NCBI GenBank assembly: GCA_027604665.1
Contig: JADGIZ010000273.1
Span: forward strand, 1-17,299
Length of the DNA stretch: 17,299 nt
Direction: 5' to 3'
Source: Polyrhizophydium stewartii
Taxonomy: Eukaryota > Chytridiomycota > Chytridiomycetes > Rhizophydiales
Part shown: positions 5,763-17,021 of the stretch, one piece after another
How positions within the stretch are numbered: position 1 is the first letter of the stretch
Layout of the letters: every line of letters begins with the position of its first letter
The notes under the pieces: generated by a model
Database searches by the model: none
Told to the model about the DNA's origin: nothing
What the model saw: only the letters and a program-made list of their open reading frames with translations
Position numbers and translations under genes: made by a program

Positions 5763-7071
5763 ATGGCGGACCGCCTGCGCCAGCCGTTCGAGACCGTGCG
5801 GGTCACCTTCCCCGCCGAGCACGTCGCGCACGTCGAGCTCGCGCGCACCAAGCAGCTCAACAGCATGACCACCAAGTTCTTCAACGAGTTCATCGAGGTC
5901 TTTGAGGCCATCCGCATCGACAACAGCGTTCGCGCCGTCGTCGTGTCGGCCGAGACGCACGCCCGCGGCTTCACCGCCGGCCTCGACCGTGCGTGCCTCC
6001 GGGCTGCTCCGCCTCGCCCGCCCACGGCGCTTGCTGCGCGGCTGACACCCGCCGCCCACGTGCCGCTCTCTCGCCGCCCGCCCAGTCAAGGAGTCCGCCG
6101 ACTTCCCAAAGTCGGGCGACGACCCGGCGCGCGAGGCGATCCGCTTCCTGCCCAAGGTGCAGCAGCTGCAGCGCTCGTTCAACGTCATTGAAAAGTGCGA
6201 CAAGCCCGTCATTGCTGCCGTCCACGGCTTCTGCATCGGCGGCGGTGAGGCCTCTGCCTGCGCCAGACCGCCGCCCTCGGCCCACCGCTGACGCAAACTC
6301 GCCAGGCATCGACCTCATTGCCGCTTGCGACATTCGCTTCTGCTCCAAGGACGCAAGGTTCACGGTCAAGGTGCGTGCTTTGTGGTTTAACCTGTCGAGT
6401 GCAGCCGCCGCAAGCACCACGCCGGCGTCCCCCCCCCCGGTGCTTTGTACTGACCAGCCTGCGCCTCCGCACGTGCAACGTCTGCCGTCAACTATTCCGC
6501 CGCTTCCGCATGCGCCACCAATTCGATCTGGCCGAGCCAGGAGGTCGACATTGGCATCGCCGCGGACCTCGGCACGCTGCAGCGCCTGCCCAAGATTGTC
6601 GGCAACCACAGCTGGGTGCGCGACATCTGCTACACGGCGCGCTTTGTGCCCGCGCAAGAGGCCCTGCAGTTCGGCCTTGTCAGCCGCGTCCTCGACGACA
6701 AGGAACAGCTCATAAGTGAGCACGGCTCCCGATATCCTTCGCCGATCCCGCCCCGCTCGGCGCGCTGACGATACACGCCTGGATTGCGCAGAGGCCGCGC
6801 TCGAGACGGCCAAGCTCATTGCATCCAAATCGCCCGTTGCAGTCCTCGGCACAAAGTAAGCGGATATGCCTGTCTCTGAACCTTGCGCGCGCTCTGCCCT
6901 GACCATCTCTCTCCTGCCAGGCATCTTCTCAACTACAGCCGCGAGCACACCGTCGAGGAGGGCCTTCAGTACACTGCCGTCTGGAACTCGGTCATGATCA
7001 ACACCCAGGACATGGCCGTGGCAGTGGCGTCCTCGCTGTCCAAGCAGCCTGCCGTCTTTGCCAAGCTGTGA
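5763..7071 (+). CDS. ECH1: Peroxisomal delta(3,5)-delta(2,4)-dienoyl-CoA isomerase (ECH1 type), 6 exons
   Basis: A crotonase-fold enzyme that isomerises 3,5-dienoyl-CoA to 2,4-dienoyl-CoA during beta-oxidation of unsaturated fatty acids. Exons: 5763-5988, 6086-6244, 6306-6370, 6541-6715, 6792-6855 and 6921-7071; 840 nt, 279 aa, phases consistent. Oxyanion-hole segments are ARGFTAGLD (residues 67-75) and HGFCIGGGIDL. Asp131, Glu151 and Asp159 match rat ECH1 catalytic/active-site residues Asp176, Glu196 and Asp204, with identical spacing (20 and 8). KEVDIGIAADLGTLQRLPK is close to the animal enzyme and separates it from ordinary enoyl-CoA hydratases. The C-terminus is FAKL, a type 1 peroxisomal targeting signal (AKL). 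The N-terminus lacks an obvious mitochondrial presequence, so peroxisomal location is likely. It starts 51 bp after the upstream stop; the 80 bp after its own stop show no poly(A) hexamer. Confidence 0.94.
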
Positions 7072-12125: not shown

Positions 12126-15100
12126 ATGACTCCGGCCGGCCCGCAGCCGCCCACCGCCCGCGCCGGCGCACCACAGCCGCAGGCCGCGGACGGCGCCGCG
12201 CCCATGTCGCCGCCCAACTGGGCTGTCATCAACAATCCCGTCGTGACCTGTGCGTTGCCCTCGCCGCCTCGACCCCTGCCCGGCGCGAGAGGCGCCGCTC
12301 CGCGAGGCTGCTGACCGAGGCACGCCCCTCGTTCACGGCTGCGTGCGCTGGCCGCGCTGGCTCCGCTGGCTGCACTGTGTGCTGCGCTCTCTCTACGCCG
12401 CGGCCCGCCGGCGCGGCCCGCCAGACGCCGAGGACACGGCCATCTGGTCGTCGCTGGCCAGCGACTTCAACTCGCGCCTGCCTCTGCGCCAGCTGCCGTG
12501 GCAGAACCCGCTGCGCTCGGGGCGGGCGACGGCGCCGGGCATGCAGCGCATCATCCCGACGCTCGACATCCAGATGCGGCCCTTTTCGCCGGACCTGCTG
12601 CCCAGGCTCGCGCCGGGCGGGCTGCACCAGAACTCGGTCTTCATGCACATCTTCTTTGTCGGCTGCGAGGACATTGAGTACTACAAGAACAACGTTCGCC
12701 GGCAGCTGCAGGAGTGGATCAACGCCGTGTCGTCCAAAAAGGGCCAGGAGTGGCTTGTCGTGCACCTGACGGGCGGCGACAGCAGGGGCCGCGCGGGCCT
12801 CTTCAACATTGGCGCTGCGAGCACCGTGCTCGACAAGATCCGATCCGACTTCAACCTCAAGAAAGACAGGTTGCGTGCACACCGTGCAGCGCAGCATTCA
12901 CGCATCTCTTCTTCTGCGCTGACGGGTTGCCTTGTGTTTCCGCGCGTGCAGATCCATGCAGTTCCGCATCACCAACAACGAGATCAAGGACGCCGAGTTT
13001 TGGAACGAGCTCCTTGATCGCATCAAAGAGGGCCTTGTCTCGGCCATCACGCAGCAGGCAGCGCAGCTCGAGGACGACACGCGCAGGTTCGAGCAGCAGC
13101 GTCTGATGCCGGGCTGGAACTATTGCCAATACTTTATCCTCAAGGTGCGTGCGCCGCATCGTGCCGCCGCAGCAAGCCCGAGAACTGATCGGATCATCTG
13201 GCACGCTGGGTCTCCATTCCGATCTGCAGGAGACGCTCGCATTCACGTACGAGCTCGTGCGCTTCTTTGACGAAGCGCTGCTTCACTACGACGAGCTGGA
13301 GGCCACGTTCTTCCAGACGCTGGTCGAGCAAGGCGCGCCGTGGTTCCACAAGTTTGGCGGCGTGGAGCCCGGCGACGACTGCTCCGACGTGCTCAACTCG
13401 GACCGCAAGCCATACCGCAGCATGATCATCCAAAACACCATCACCATCTTTGACTTTCGCGAGTACCTGTTCAGCCGCCAGTGCCGGCTCATTTTCCTGC
13501 TGGGCTCGCCCGCCGACGTCTGCCAGCGCACCAAGATGTTTGTGGTCTCGCTATCCAAGATGCTGCGCGAGTACAGCGTGTCGCTAGCGCCGCATTTCCG
13601 CGAGTCGTGGTCGTACTCGCTGTGCATGCGCATCGTCCGCGAGTGCGACGCCGTCTTCAGGATGCTCTCGATGCCCACGTCGGCAATGCAGGTCTACGAA
13701 GCGCTGCGTGCGGAGCTGCTGCAGATCGCACGTATCCAGGTGCATAGCTACTCGGTGATCCAGCCTGCCTTGAGTTGCACAGGAGCTCACCGATTGCCGC
13801 CGTCGCCCAGCTCGACCGCCTTGGAACGGCCAAGAAGATTTGCTCGAACCCGCTGTATCTCGAGGGTGACGGCACGGCCCCCGAGACCCCCGCTGCAGAA
13901 AACGGCCGCACTATCTCCAATCCGGAGCTTGTGCAAGCGCTCTCGTCGCCCGAGACGTTTGGAATTCTCTATCAGGCAAGCATCGTCTGCTCGCCCGATG
14001 GACTGCTGCCCGGGGCAGGAGCCTGACTCTGCCGCTCGCAGCACGTCACCAACCTAGCCGTGCGTGGCTTCGAGGCGTGTGCTCGCCCGCGATCGGCTCT
14101 GGCTCTTCAAAGCGATCTCGCGTTCTGGCACTTGTAAGAGCAATGGCAACAGCCCACTCTGCTGCATGCACGCCACGGTCTGACACAGAGCTACTCCTTG
14201 CGTCGACAGCTCGCAGGAGGACTATGAGAAGGCCGCCGAGATCTGGGAGCGTGTGGCGTTCAGGCACTCGGAATCCGGCTGGCACCACATCGAGACGGTC
14301 ATTGTCGAGTGCCTCGCCAGGTGTTATCGCGAGCTGCGCCGGTATAACAAATATCCTTTTTTCCCGGACTCGCGCTTGTGTGCTCGCGTGCCCGTGCCGC
14401 ATGGGTGCTTCTTGTTTTTTCGAGCTGCCTGTGCGAACACCTTGACGCGTGCCGCACGCTGGTAGAGTCTTGCCTTTACCTTGTCTCGCACCCCAAACTG
14501 ATGGATGCGCAGAAGGCGGAGCAGCTTGTCGACGAGCTTAACGGCGCCGCGATCGCCATGGCAGAGCGTGCGTGAGCATCGATGCGCGCGGCATGGTTGC
14601 TGGATGCGCTGACACTCGACCATGACCAGCCATCTCTCGCCACATGTCGGACCTCTTTGGCGTCTCGATCGCCTCGGTGATCAACCGCGCTGGAGACGAC
14701 GACGAGATTGTCATTGAGCTCAATATCCGCAGCGTCCTGGTCAAGGTCTGAAGTCGCTGGCTATTCGCCCGCTTGATGCGCGGCCGGCGGTGTCGACTGA
14801 CGTGCTCTGATGGGGCAGGACTTTAACATGACTCGCGTGCTGCTCACGCTGACGGCCGGCGACGGCAAGGAGATGATCTGCGAGTGCCACAACGTGGTGC
14901 TGCACACGGGCAAGAACCTGGCTCGTGTGTCGTGCAAGGTCGGTGCCAGTTGAGCCGTTGGCTCGGACCGCCTCGCTTGCTGACTCTGGGCCACCATGCT
15001 CGCAGAAATCAACGATTCCGGGCAACTACAGCCCGTCGACGGTGACGATGGAGAGCGGGAACCTGCACTTTTATTACGACTTGCATCCATTCGACCGCAA

Positions 15101-17021
15101 AAAGGGTGTTCGCATCAACGAAACCGCGGCGTCGCTCAAGATGACAGCGAGCCTGCCACGAACGAGTTGCGTGTGCTGCGCACCCTGCAGACGTTCTTGA
15201 CATTGTGTGTGTGTGTGTGTGTGTGTGTGGCGCTGACGGTCTGGCCGCAGTCGTTCAAGGCGAGTCTGCGTCCACGATTGCATTTGAGATCCTGACTCGC
15301 AGCAACTCTGTCAAGAGCGGTGTTTTGTCGATCTCGACGCTCACCAACATTGCGTTTGCGCACCAGAGCGCGGTGCGATGCACGGTGTCGTCTGCGGGCG
15401 GTGAGTGTACTTGCTTGGTCGGCGGCGGGAACGGATTGCACAAGTTGACGCGAGAGTGCCTCAGGAGATGTCGTCTCGACCAAGGATGTATCGTTTGGTG
15501 GCGGCAAGATGCAGCTGCCCGACGCCGGACCGAACGAGCGCATCTCGTTTGCGCTGCCGTTTTCGCTCGCGCAGGACACCCGCAACACGGACCATAAGTT
15601 GAAGTTGCTTCTTAGCTGCGCCACCGACGACGGCCGGAAACGACTGCACTCGTCGATCCTGCGCGTGTCGCTTGTGCCGACGTTTGCGATTGATTCGTCG
15701 ATGATCCACGAGCACGACGGGTCGGTCGGCTTGCTATCGACTCGAAAATGCTGGCCGTGTGCTGACGTCTGCTGAACGCCTGTCGAGCAGCTCGCTGATT
15801 CAGATTGGGATGCGCTGCAAGGAGGGAGCCCCCATGCGTGTGCTCGCGGCGACGCTCGCAGCCACCGGCGAGCCAGACGTCAAGCCCATCGAGACCATTG
15901 GACAGCAAATCGCCTTTCCGGGCACGCCCATATCGCTCCTGTTCCAGCTTGGCGCCGCTGCGTCCCACGACGTCGAGACCTACACGCCCACATGCAGCCT
16001 GACGCTGACCGTGTCCTACGTCCCTGTCAATGATGGTTTGTCCCAGGCTTTGCGGCTTGTGCATGTGTCGATGACTGACCCGAAGAATGCCCGTCTCGAT
16101 GTGCTGCGCAGAGATCGAAGCCTTTGTGCAGGCGCGACTTGAAGCGGTGCTTGCGAAGCAGGGCCTGTCGCGTTTCACGGGCTTCTTTTTCAACTTCCTG
16201 GCTCGCACGCTTCTGCCGCAGATTGATGCGTTCGAGTCGTCCGCGTTTGGAGCACTCGACTTTGGCAAGTTTGACGCCGCGGCGCTCGAGCCGCTGCTCT
16301 CGGACGAGGAACCGGCGACGCGAGGCAAGCTTGTTGCGGCAGCGGCAGCGCTCTGGGAGGTGCGTGGTGGCCCGCGAATCCGGTTGCTGGCCGAGTGTTG
16401 GCTGACGGTCACTCGACTGTGCAGGAGCTTGCCGGAGTCTCGCTCGACACGGTCACGGCCGAGTCAAAACTTGCGCCGCTCAAGCTCGTCTTCACGGCGA
16501 CGCACGCTGTGCCGCGCGTCATTGCGCACACGTGCATTCGGGTCGAGTCTTTGAGCGACAGGACCGTCGGCAGCGCGATTCCGTGCACGATCCTGGTGAC
16601 GCCGCTCACATGGATACTTCCTGCCAAGCAGGATCAGCTCGAAGTGGAGCTCGAGCTCGACATCAACTTTGCGGTGTTTGCGATTGCGGGCAAGAAGCGC
16701 GGCATTGTGAAGCTCGCGGCAAGTCAAGTTGCTGTTGCATGACCCTGCGAGACAGACGTGCTGACATGGCGGTGGTGGCTGCAGCGGGACAAGCCGGCCG
16801 AGCTGCGCGTGCTGCTGTGTCCGCTGCAGGCGGGCCAGATTCTGCTGCCACGGGTGCAGGCGACCGTGCTGGGCCTGCCCGCGGACGCCGTGTCTGTGCA
16901 GAACGTGAGCACCGGCGCGCAGATATCGGTGCTTCCGCGACGCCAGTCGGCGAAGATCTTTGTGTCCGAGACGCCGGATGCCCTCAAGGCCGTGCTGCCT
17001 GGCCGCATTGTGATGGTGTGA
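12126..17021 (+). CDS. TRAPPC10: TRAPP complex subunit TRAPPC10 (Trs130), 17 exons
   Basis: A large subunit of the TRAPPII tethering complex, which activates Rab11/Ypt31-type GTPases at the trans-Golgi. Exons: 12126-12249, 12425-12869, 12952-13144, 13230-13739, 13811-13975, 14042-14133, 14210-14350, 14458-14567, 14630-14745, 14819-14938, 15006-15165, 15251-15400, 15465-15720, 15791-16035, 16112-16359, 16425-16727 and 16785-17021; 3615 nt, 1204 aa (human about 1259). Family matches include NNPVVTYAEDTAIW (human NKPIVT), VDKIR-like VLDKIRSDF, LEDDTRRFEQ, PGWNYCQYF, ETLAFTYELVRFFDEAL, HYDELEA and DFREYLFSRQC in the helical N-terminal half. The C-terminal half is beta-sandwich rich (KSTIPGNYSPSTVTME, LIQIGMRCK, LRVLLCPLQAG). 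Phases agree at all 16 introns. Intron 5 is GC-AG and intron 7 is AT-AC. The start could be ATG 12126 or 12204; both leave the conserved region intact. No poly(A) hexamer is seen after the stop. Confidence 0.92.
13976..14041 (+). other. GC-AG intron in TRAPPC10 (intron 5)
   Basis: The donor is CAG followed by GCAAGC, with a CTGAC branch motif and a CTCGCAG acceptor; 66 nt, phase 0. It joins ETFGILYQ to HVTNLAVRGFEA, aligning without gaps to human EAFEKHYLDLSHATIEMY. A GT donor nine bases on (13985) also keeps frame but would insert three residues and is a poorer site. Confidence 0.65.
14351..14457 (+). other. Probable U12-type AT-AC intron in TRAPPC10 (intron 7)
   Basis: The intron begins ATATCCTTTT, the full minor-spliceosome donor consensus, and ends CCGCAC. 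CCTTGAC (14440-14446), matching the core of the U12 branch consensus TTCCTTRAC, lies just upstream with 12 nt from the branch A to the intron end; U12 introns typically have 10-16. It is 107 nt, phase 2. Splicing joins ARCYRELRRYN, via a split Lys codon, to LVESCLYLVSHPKL, continuous with the helical repeat expected in Trs130. No GT-AG pair retains the RYNK residues in frame with VESCLYL. The one in-frame GT-AG alternative (14342-14424) loses them and lacks the CTGAC branch motif seen in most introns here. Confidence 0.78.
15204..15229 (+). repeat. (TG)13 microsatellite in TRAPPC10 intron 11
   Basis: Thirteen perfect TG dinucleotides lie inside the 85-nt intron 15166-15250, between the donor and the CTGAC branch motif at 15232-15236. 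It is likely length-polymorphic, and changes would not touch the coding sequence. Confidence 0.95.

Follow-up and report, generated by a model that had tools for sequence, protein, structure and literature searches.

A probable U12-type AT-AC intron in TRAPPC10 of the chytrid Polyrhizophydium stewartii, with candidate components of a minor spliceosome

Does the TRAPPC10 gene of Polyrhizophydium stewartii carry an intron of the minor, U12-type class, and does its host keep the machinery that would remove such an intron? The window, by which we mean the whole stretch of 17,299 nucleotides that was analysed, had been read from its letters in a first-pass annotation that proposed an AT-AC intron of this class inside TRAPPC10 and took such an intron, should the host be a chytrid, to imply retained minor-spliceosome machinery. 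Protein matches identify the host as P. stewartii, which the NCBI taxonomy places in the Rhizophydiales, Chytridiomycota, so that a chytrid host is borne out, and an excerpt of PMC12204190 describes it as a saprophytic species with 9,378 genes that is a close relative of B. dendrobatidis. The 5' splice site and the branch site are the defining features of U12 introns, and the best spacing between branch and 3' end is 11–13 nt, according to excerpted text of PMC3584512.

An AT-AC intron within TRAPPC10

The intron in question is the seventh of our gene model (Table 1). Its 5' splice site, ATATCCTTTT at 14351, agrees with RTATCCTT, and CCTTGAC follows the approximate branch consensus YCCTTRAC apart from the preceding base, which is A and not Y. 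The branch lies 12 nt from the 3' end, within the 11–13 nt optimum, and the termini are AT-AC, one of the two pairs (AT-AC and GT-AG) expected of U12-type introns. The hallmarks claimed in the first-pass annotation, namely ATATCCTTTT, CCTTGAC 12 nt from the end and a terminal AC, are confirmed. On the forward strand of the window the combination of 5' site, branch and 3' end is found a single time, and on the reverse strand not at all; the same combined pattern arose in one of 4000 simulated first-order Markov windows. The window holds two copies of the motif ATATCCTT, where 0.04 would be expected; the second, at 6732, was rejected as a U12 intron, as by reading it falls within a GT-AG intron of the ordinary kind whose branch is CTGAC.

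Table 1. Features of the TRAPPC10 locus, in window coordinates
Feature	Positions	Strand	Details
TRAPPC10 gene	12126..17021	+	17 exons, 1201 aa spliced, stop codon included; start codon uncertain
Exon 5' of the AT-AC intron	14210..14350	+	ends ...CYRELRRYN + 2 bases
Probable U12-type AT-AC intron	14351..14457	+	107 nt, phase 2, after two bases of codon 557 (TRAPPC10 model)
Probable U12-type 5' splice site	14351..14360	+	ATATCCTTTT, letters read
Probable U12-type branch site	14440..14446	+	CCTTGAC; branch A = 14445, 12 nt before last base
3' terminal AC	14456..14457	+	letters read
Exon 3' of the AT-AC intron	14458..14567	+	completes K, then LVESCLYLV...
GT-AG alternative	14342..14424	+	implied by deposited P0001; 8-residue insertion

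The identity of the gene is supported by four Pfam domains that score above cut-off in the modelled protein, TRAPPC10_1st (E 1.1e-87), TR130 NTS, DUF7076 and TRAPPC10 (E 8.6e-07). Its start codon is uncertain because the deposited P. stewartii proteins start 26 residues later than our model. Most other introns in the window had been described as having major-type branches, and this holds, with CT[GAC]AC or TTRAC found 15–34 nt from the 3' end in 13 of 15 (a count made before one acceptor was changed).

If the AT-AC stretch is retained the frame stops at 594 aa, while its removal gives the 1201-aa open frame. In order to rank this splice against others, we built models from GT-AG, GC-AG, AT-AC and AT-AG pairs with donors at 14225–14419, acceptors as far as 14559 and a length of at least 40 nt. 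The whole frame stayed open in 100 models, and 93 of these could be scored, both anchor words being kept. The yardstick consisted of 11 homologues intact at the intron spot, drawn from 17 aligned among 44 found, after exclusion of six of the 17: both P. stewartii models, two broken ones and two near-duplicates. The AT-AC model ranked first of 93 in summed score (1498; runner-up 1417) and was the single best model for 10 of the 11 homologues; it was second for the Mortierella protein P0013, which gives a higher score to a rival AT-AC model. No gap opens at its junction against any of 13 homologues intact there (two of them near-duplicates; 17 of 44 aligned), as in the alignment of Batrachochytrium dendrobatidis CYRELGRFDKLVECCLYLV with the model's CYRELRRYNKLVESCLYLV. 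Removal of the AT-AC intron restores a conserved protein, as had been expected of a splice said to keep the frame and to yield the smoothest product.

The anatomy, its rarity in the Markov windows and the ranking of splice models against homologues all support the proposed identity. The sequence evidence for a minor-type intron in TRAPPC10 is strong, and positions 14351–14457 almost certainly represent a U12-type AT-AC intron of P. stewartii.

Similar introns and minor-spliceosome components in the genome

The genome holds 113 copies of the nine-letter site RTATCCTTT, compared with 63 of the reversed pattern. The copies are unevenly spread over the strands, with 39 on the forward and 74 on the reverse strand, whereas those of the reversed control are balanced (33 and 30). 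We examined 100 of the 113 sites, 64 of them in DNA with 50% G+C or more and 36 below 50%, for [CT]TTRAC starting 30–230 nt downstream with an AC ending 8–15 nt after the A, and mock placements of the test were made upstream and, on the opposite strand, upstream and downstream. In GC-rich DNA an AT..AC arrangement followed 10 of 45 A-start sites (among the 100 of 113), compared with 2, 2 and 3 of 45 in the mocks (10/45 vs 7/135 pooled; Fisher p 0.002). The ten sites are that of the window and loci L019, L023, L047, L053, L054, L076, L090, L094 and L100. The corresponding counts for AT..AG were 5 of 45 (mocks 0, 2, 3), and G-start sites gave AG ends in 0 of 19 (mocks 2, 1, 2) and AC ends in 2 of 19 (mocks 2, 0, 0). 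In AT-rich DNA, A-start sites gave AT..AC in 2 of 27 (mocks 1, 1, 2) and AT..AG in 7 of 27 (mocks 0, 3, 1), and G-start sites gave neither GT..AC (0/9; mocks 0, 1, 0) nor GT..AG (0/9; mocks 1, 0, 2). The strict-consensus candidates may therefore be biased towards AT-AC over GT-AG (10/45 vs 0/19; Fisher p 0.02), a lead and not a result because the counts depend on one nine-letter site, strictly matched, and on a limited search range. The minor introns that we accepted here are 75–176 nt long.

Several candidates lie in recognizable genes. Alignments span the spliced AT-AC junction in an exportin-5 (L090) and an importin (L094), and also in a kinesin (L023), the latter below Pfam's cut-off, so that three of the eight peptides in one spliced set have a junction-spanning family match. 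A POLD1 gene (L100) aligns across its junction to PDB 6s1m, and an alignment also spans the junction in a gene of the syntaxin-6 type (L059), with the branch A 29 nt from the end by count. The RIC1-like (L053) and XPO7-like (L054) assignments rest on reading of the peptides; searches gave no support for the RIC1-like and two XPO7-like spliced peptides. L066 and L083 fit the pattern as GT-AC. One candidate that fits the pattern over a 205-nt span (L076) was taken as chance, and another (L077) was set aside, as it gave no in-frame splice with the ends tried.

Two further loci on the reverse strand are recorded as observations. In a WD40 gene (L044) a 125-nt span with a perfect U12 5' site fits in frame as AT-AC, and the WD40 match reaches two residues beyond the junction; it has no good U12 branch site, and the only CTGAC, by count, is some 36 nt away from the end. 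At L071, CCTTGAC comes after ATATCCTTTT but neither AC nor AG stands at the usual distance, and the termini are possibly non-canonical.

The machinery foreseen in the first-pass annotation was recovered in part. A U6atac candidate that ends in a T run scored 35.5 bits against an Rfam gathering score of 33 (L002:1501–1647, reverse strand, contig C118) and is separate from U6, which lies on contig C579 (74 bits). The AGC shared by the Rfam consensus and this genome's U6 (L003) is replaced by GGC in the candidate, and the GAAGG of the consensus by GAUGU. For U11-35K, part of human SNRNP35 as query found a frame on C662 at 82.9 bits, distinct from a U1-70K-like frame on C346 that matched the same query more weakly (58.6 bits). 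The C662 frame is identical to human SNRNP35 at 57 of 135 aligned positions and at 17 of 35 in an N-terminal block, and 35K-like blocks are found at both of its ends. One exon of 65K/RNPC3 was found on C69, at 39.8 bits with the RNPC3 RRM as query; it has RLMKEGRMKGQAF in common with RBM40/RNPC3 and scores 39.2 bits as one domain, though PABP gives a slightly better whole-chain E-value via several weak repeats. Two di-snRNP proteins are thus represented in the host, 35K by a gene and 65K by one exon. A possible U11-48K zinc finger was not accepted, since it scored 17.9 bits against a cut-off of 21.1 and the frames there held no convincing finger.

The searches for U11, U12 and U4atac recovered none of the three. 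Their Rfam models gave no match at E 10 in the 12.86-Mb assembly, in which the U2 control was found at 126.6 bits. A search for a U4atac complementary to the U6atac candidate gave one hit against one control hit, as did a search for U12 by its branch-binding stretch with up to three mismatches, and Rfam at E 0.5 found no minor snRNA in the U4atac- and U12-pattern loci. The assembly searched, of 690 contigs, may be partial, and the absence of these snRNAs is weak evidence because of its size and contig number and because some AT-rich contigs look different. All 11 loci read on contigs C1–C4 (L005–L015) have 31–42% G+C, compared with the GC-rich gene contigs, which may reflect contamination or a repeat-rich compartment; several other contigs are alike. 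We infer that genes for U11, U12 and U4atac exist in P. stewartii. It is conceivable, if rather unlikely, that the species keeps a drifted minor spliceosome, with a GGC U6atac and with U11, U12 and U4atac beyond the reach of the Rfam models, that serves almost only AT-AC introns.

Alternative readings and a possible route of splicing

The deposited P. stewartii proteins P0001 and P0002 match our model at 97% and 95% over 98% of the query, and by eye their differences from it fall at splice choices and at the start. At the two introns that we modelled as GC-AG, P0001 has ASI extra (13976–14041) and lacks VKLA (16719–16784), as if nearby GT donors were used. At the AT-AC intron, P0001 carries RELRRCLCEHLDACRTLVESC, which matches a U2-type GT-AG intron at 14342–14424 whose frame is open and next to which the AT-AC signals would be coincidental. 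We consider this very improbable. That splice ranks seventh of 93 (score 1283), it adds eight residues that are found in none of the 13 homologues intact at this spot, no CTGAC branch was read within it, and coincidence would have to produce the full U12 pattern that just one Markov window in 4000 contained. In P0002, residues are missing to either side of the AT-AC intron, and the models of Entophlyctis (P0004) and B. salamandrivorans (P0005) also lack residues at the spot; the AT-AC intron may therefore be shared with TRAPPC10 of these two relatives, for which the missing residues are only suggestive. The case shows how gene models err at minor introns: at this spot the two P. stewartii proteins found, and the proteins of two relatives, all differ from the remaining homologues.

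A second alternative accepts the AT-AC boundaries and has the intron removed by the major (U2) spliceosome, the U12 machinery being in decay or gone and the consensus a relic. In its favour, three of the four minor snRNAs did not turn up in the searches, and AT-AC introns spliced by the major snRNAs are known (a title cited in PMC3584512). We give it next to no credence, since closely spaced matches to the U12 5'-site and branch-site consensus turn up repeatedly in unrelated genes, and since decay would not predict that U6atac, 35K and the 65K exon are retained. We infer instead that 14351–14457 is spliced in the cell by the minor spliceosome. In the standard scheme of minor splicing, a U11/U12 di-snRNP recognizes the intron and U6atac replaces U11. 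Applied to TRAPPC10, the di-snRNP, with U11-35K and 65K among its proteins, would have U11 on the 5' site and U12 on the branch site; U6atac would then displace U11 there, pairing through its AAAGGA with UCCUUU of the 5' site, and A14445 would attack the 5' end of the intron.

Relationship to known minor introns

Human TRAPPC10 (TMEM1) has a U12 intron. Our literature search found no report linking TRAPPC10 to a U12-type or minor intron. Among fungi, excerpts of PMC10639083 report minor introns in Spizellomyces punctatus and Neocallimastigomycetes, and a figure legend there that deals with loss of minor introns names B. salamandrivorans without saying how many it retains; excerpts of PMC2846911 report U12-type RNAs in Zygomycota and Chytridiomycota. 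S. punctatus, also a chytrid, has introns of the same class (PMC10639083, which does not mention Polyrhizophydium); in P. stewartii the strict-consensus candidates are AT-AC rather than GT-AG. Rhizopus oryzae and Phycomyces blakesleeanus likewise have U12 introns in species with U12-type RNAs; according to the excerpt these are EST-based and include both AT-AC and GT-AG (PMC2846911), whereas the TRAPPC10 intron is predicted from genomic sequence. The closest parallel to the AT-AC enrichment among our candidates is Blastocystis, in which 196 of 253 minor introns (77%) are AT-AC compared with about 26% in human; this organism is a stramenopile, and its minor introns average just under 42 bp, against 75–176 nt here (excerpts of PMC10639083).

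Since minor introns (excerpts of PMC10639083) and U12-type RNAs (excerpts of PMC2846911) have already been reported in chytrids, the intron class and its presence in this group are known, and the TRAPPC10 intron and the P. stewartii machinery are additions. They extend what little has been recorded of minor splicing in chytrids, and bring to the list of fungi that show signs of it a saprophyte closely related to Batrachochytrium, which kills amphibians. Specialists may find both the apparent AT-AC bias and the unusual U6atac worth examining; if true, a minor-intron set made up almost entirely of AT-AC introns would be a specialisation for which Blastocystis is the one other case in the literature consulted.
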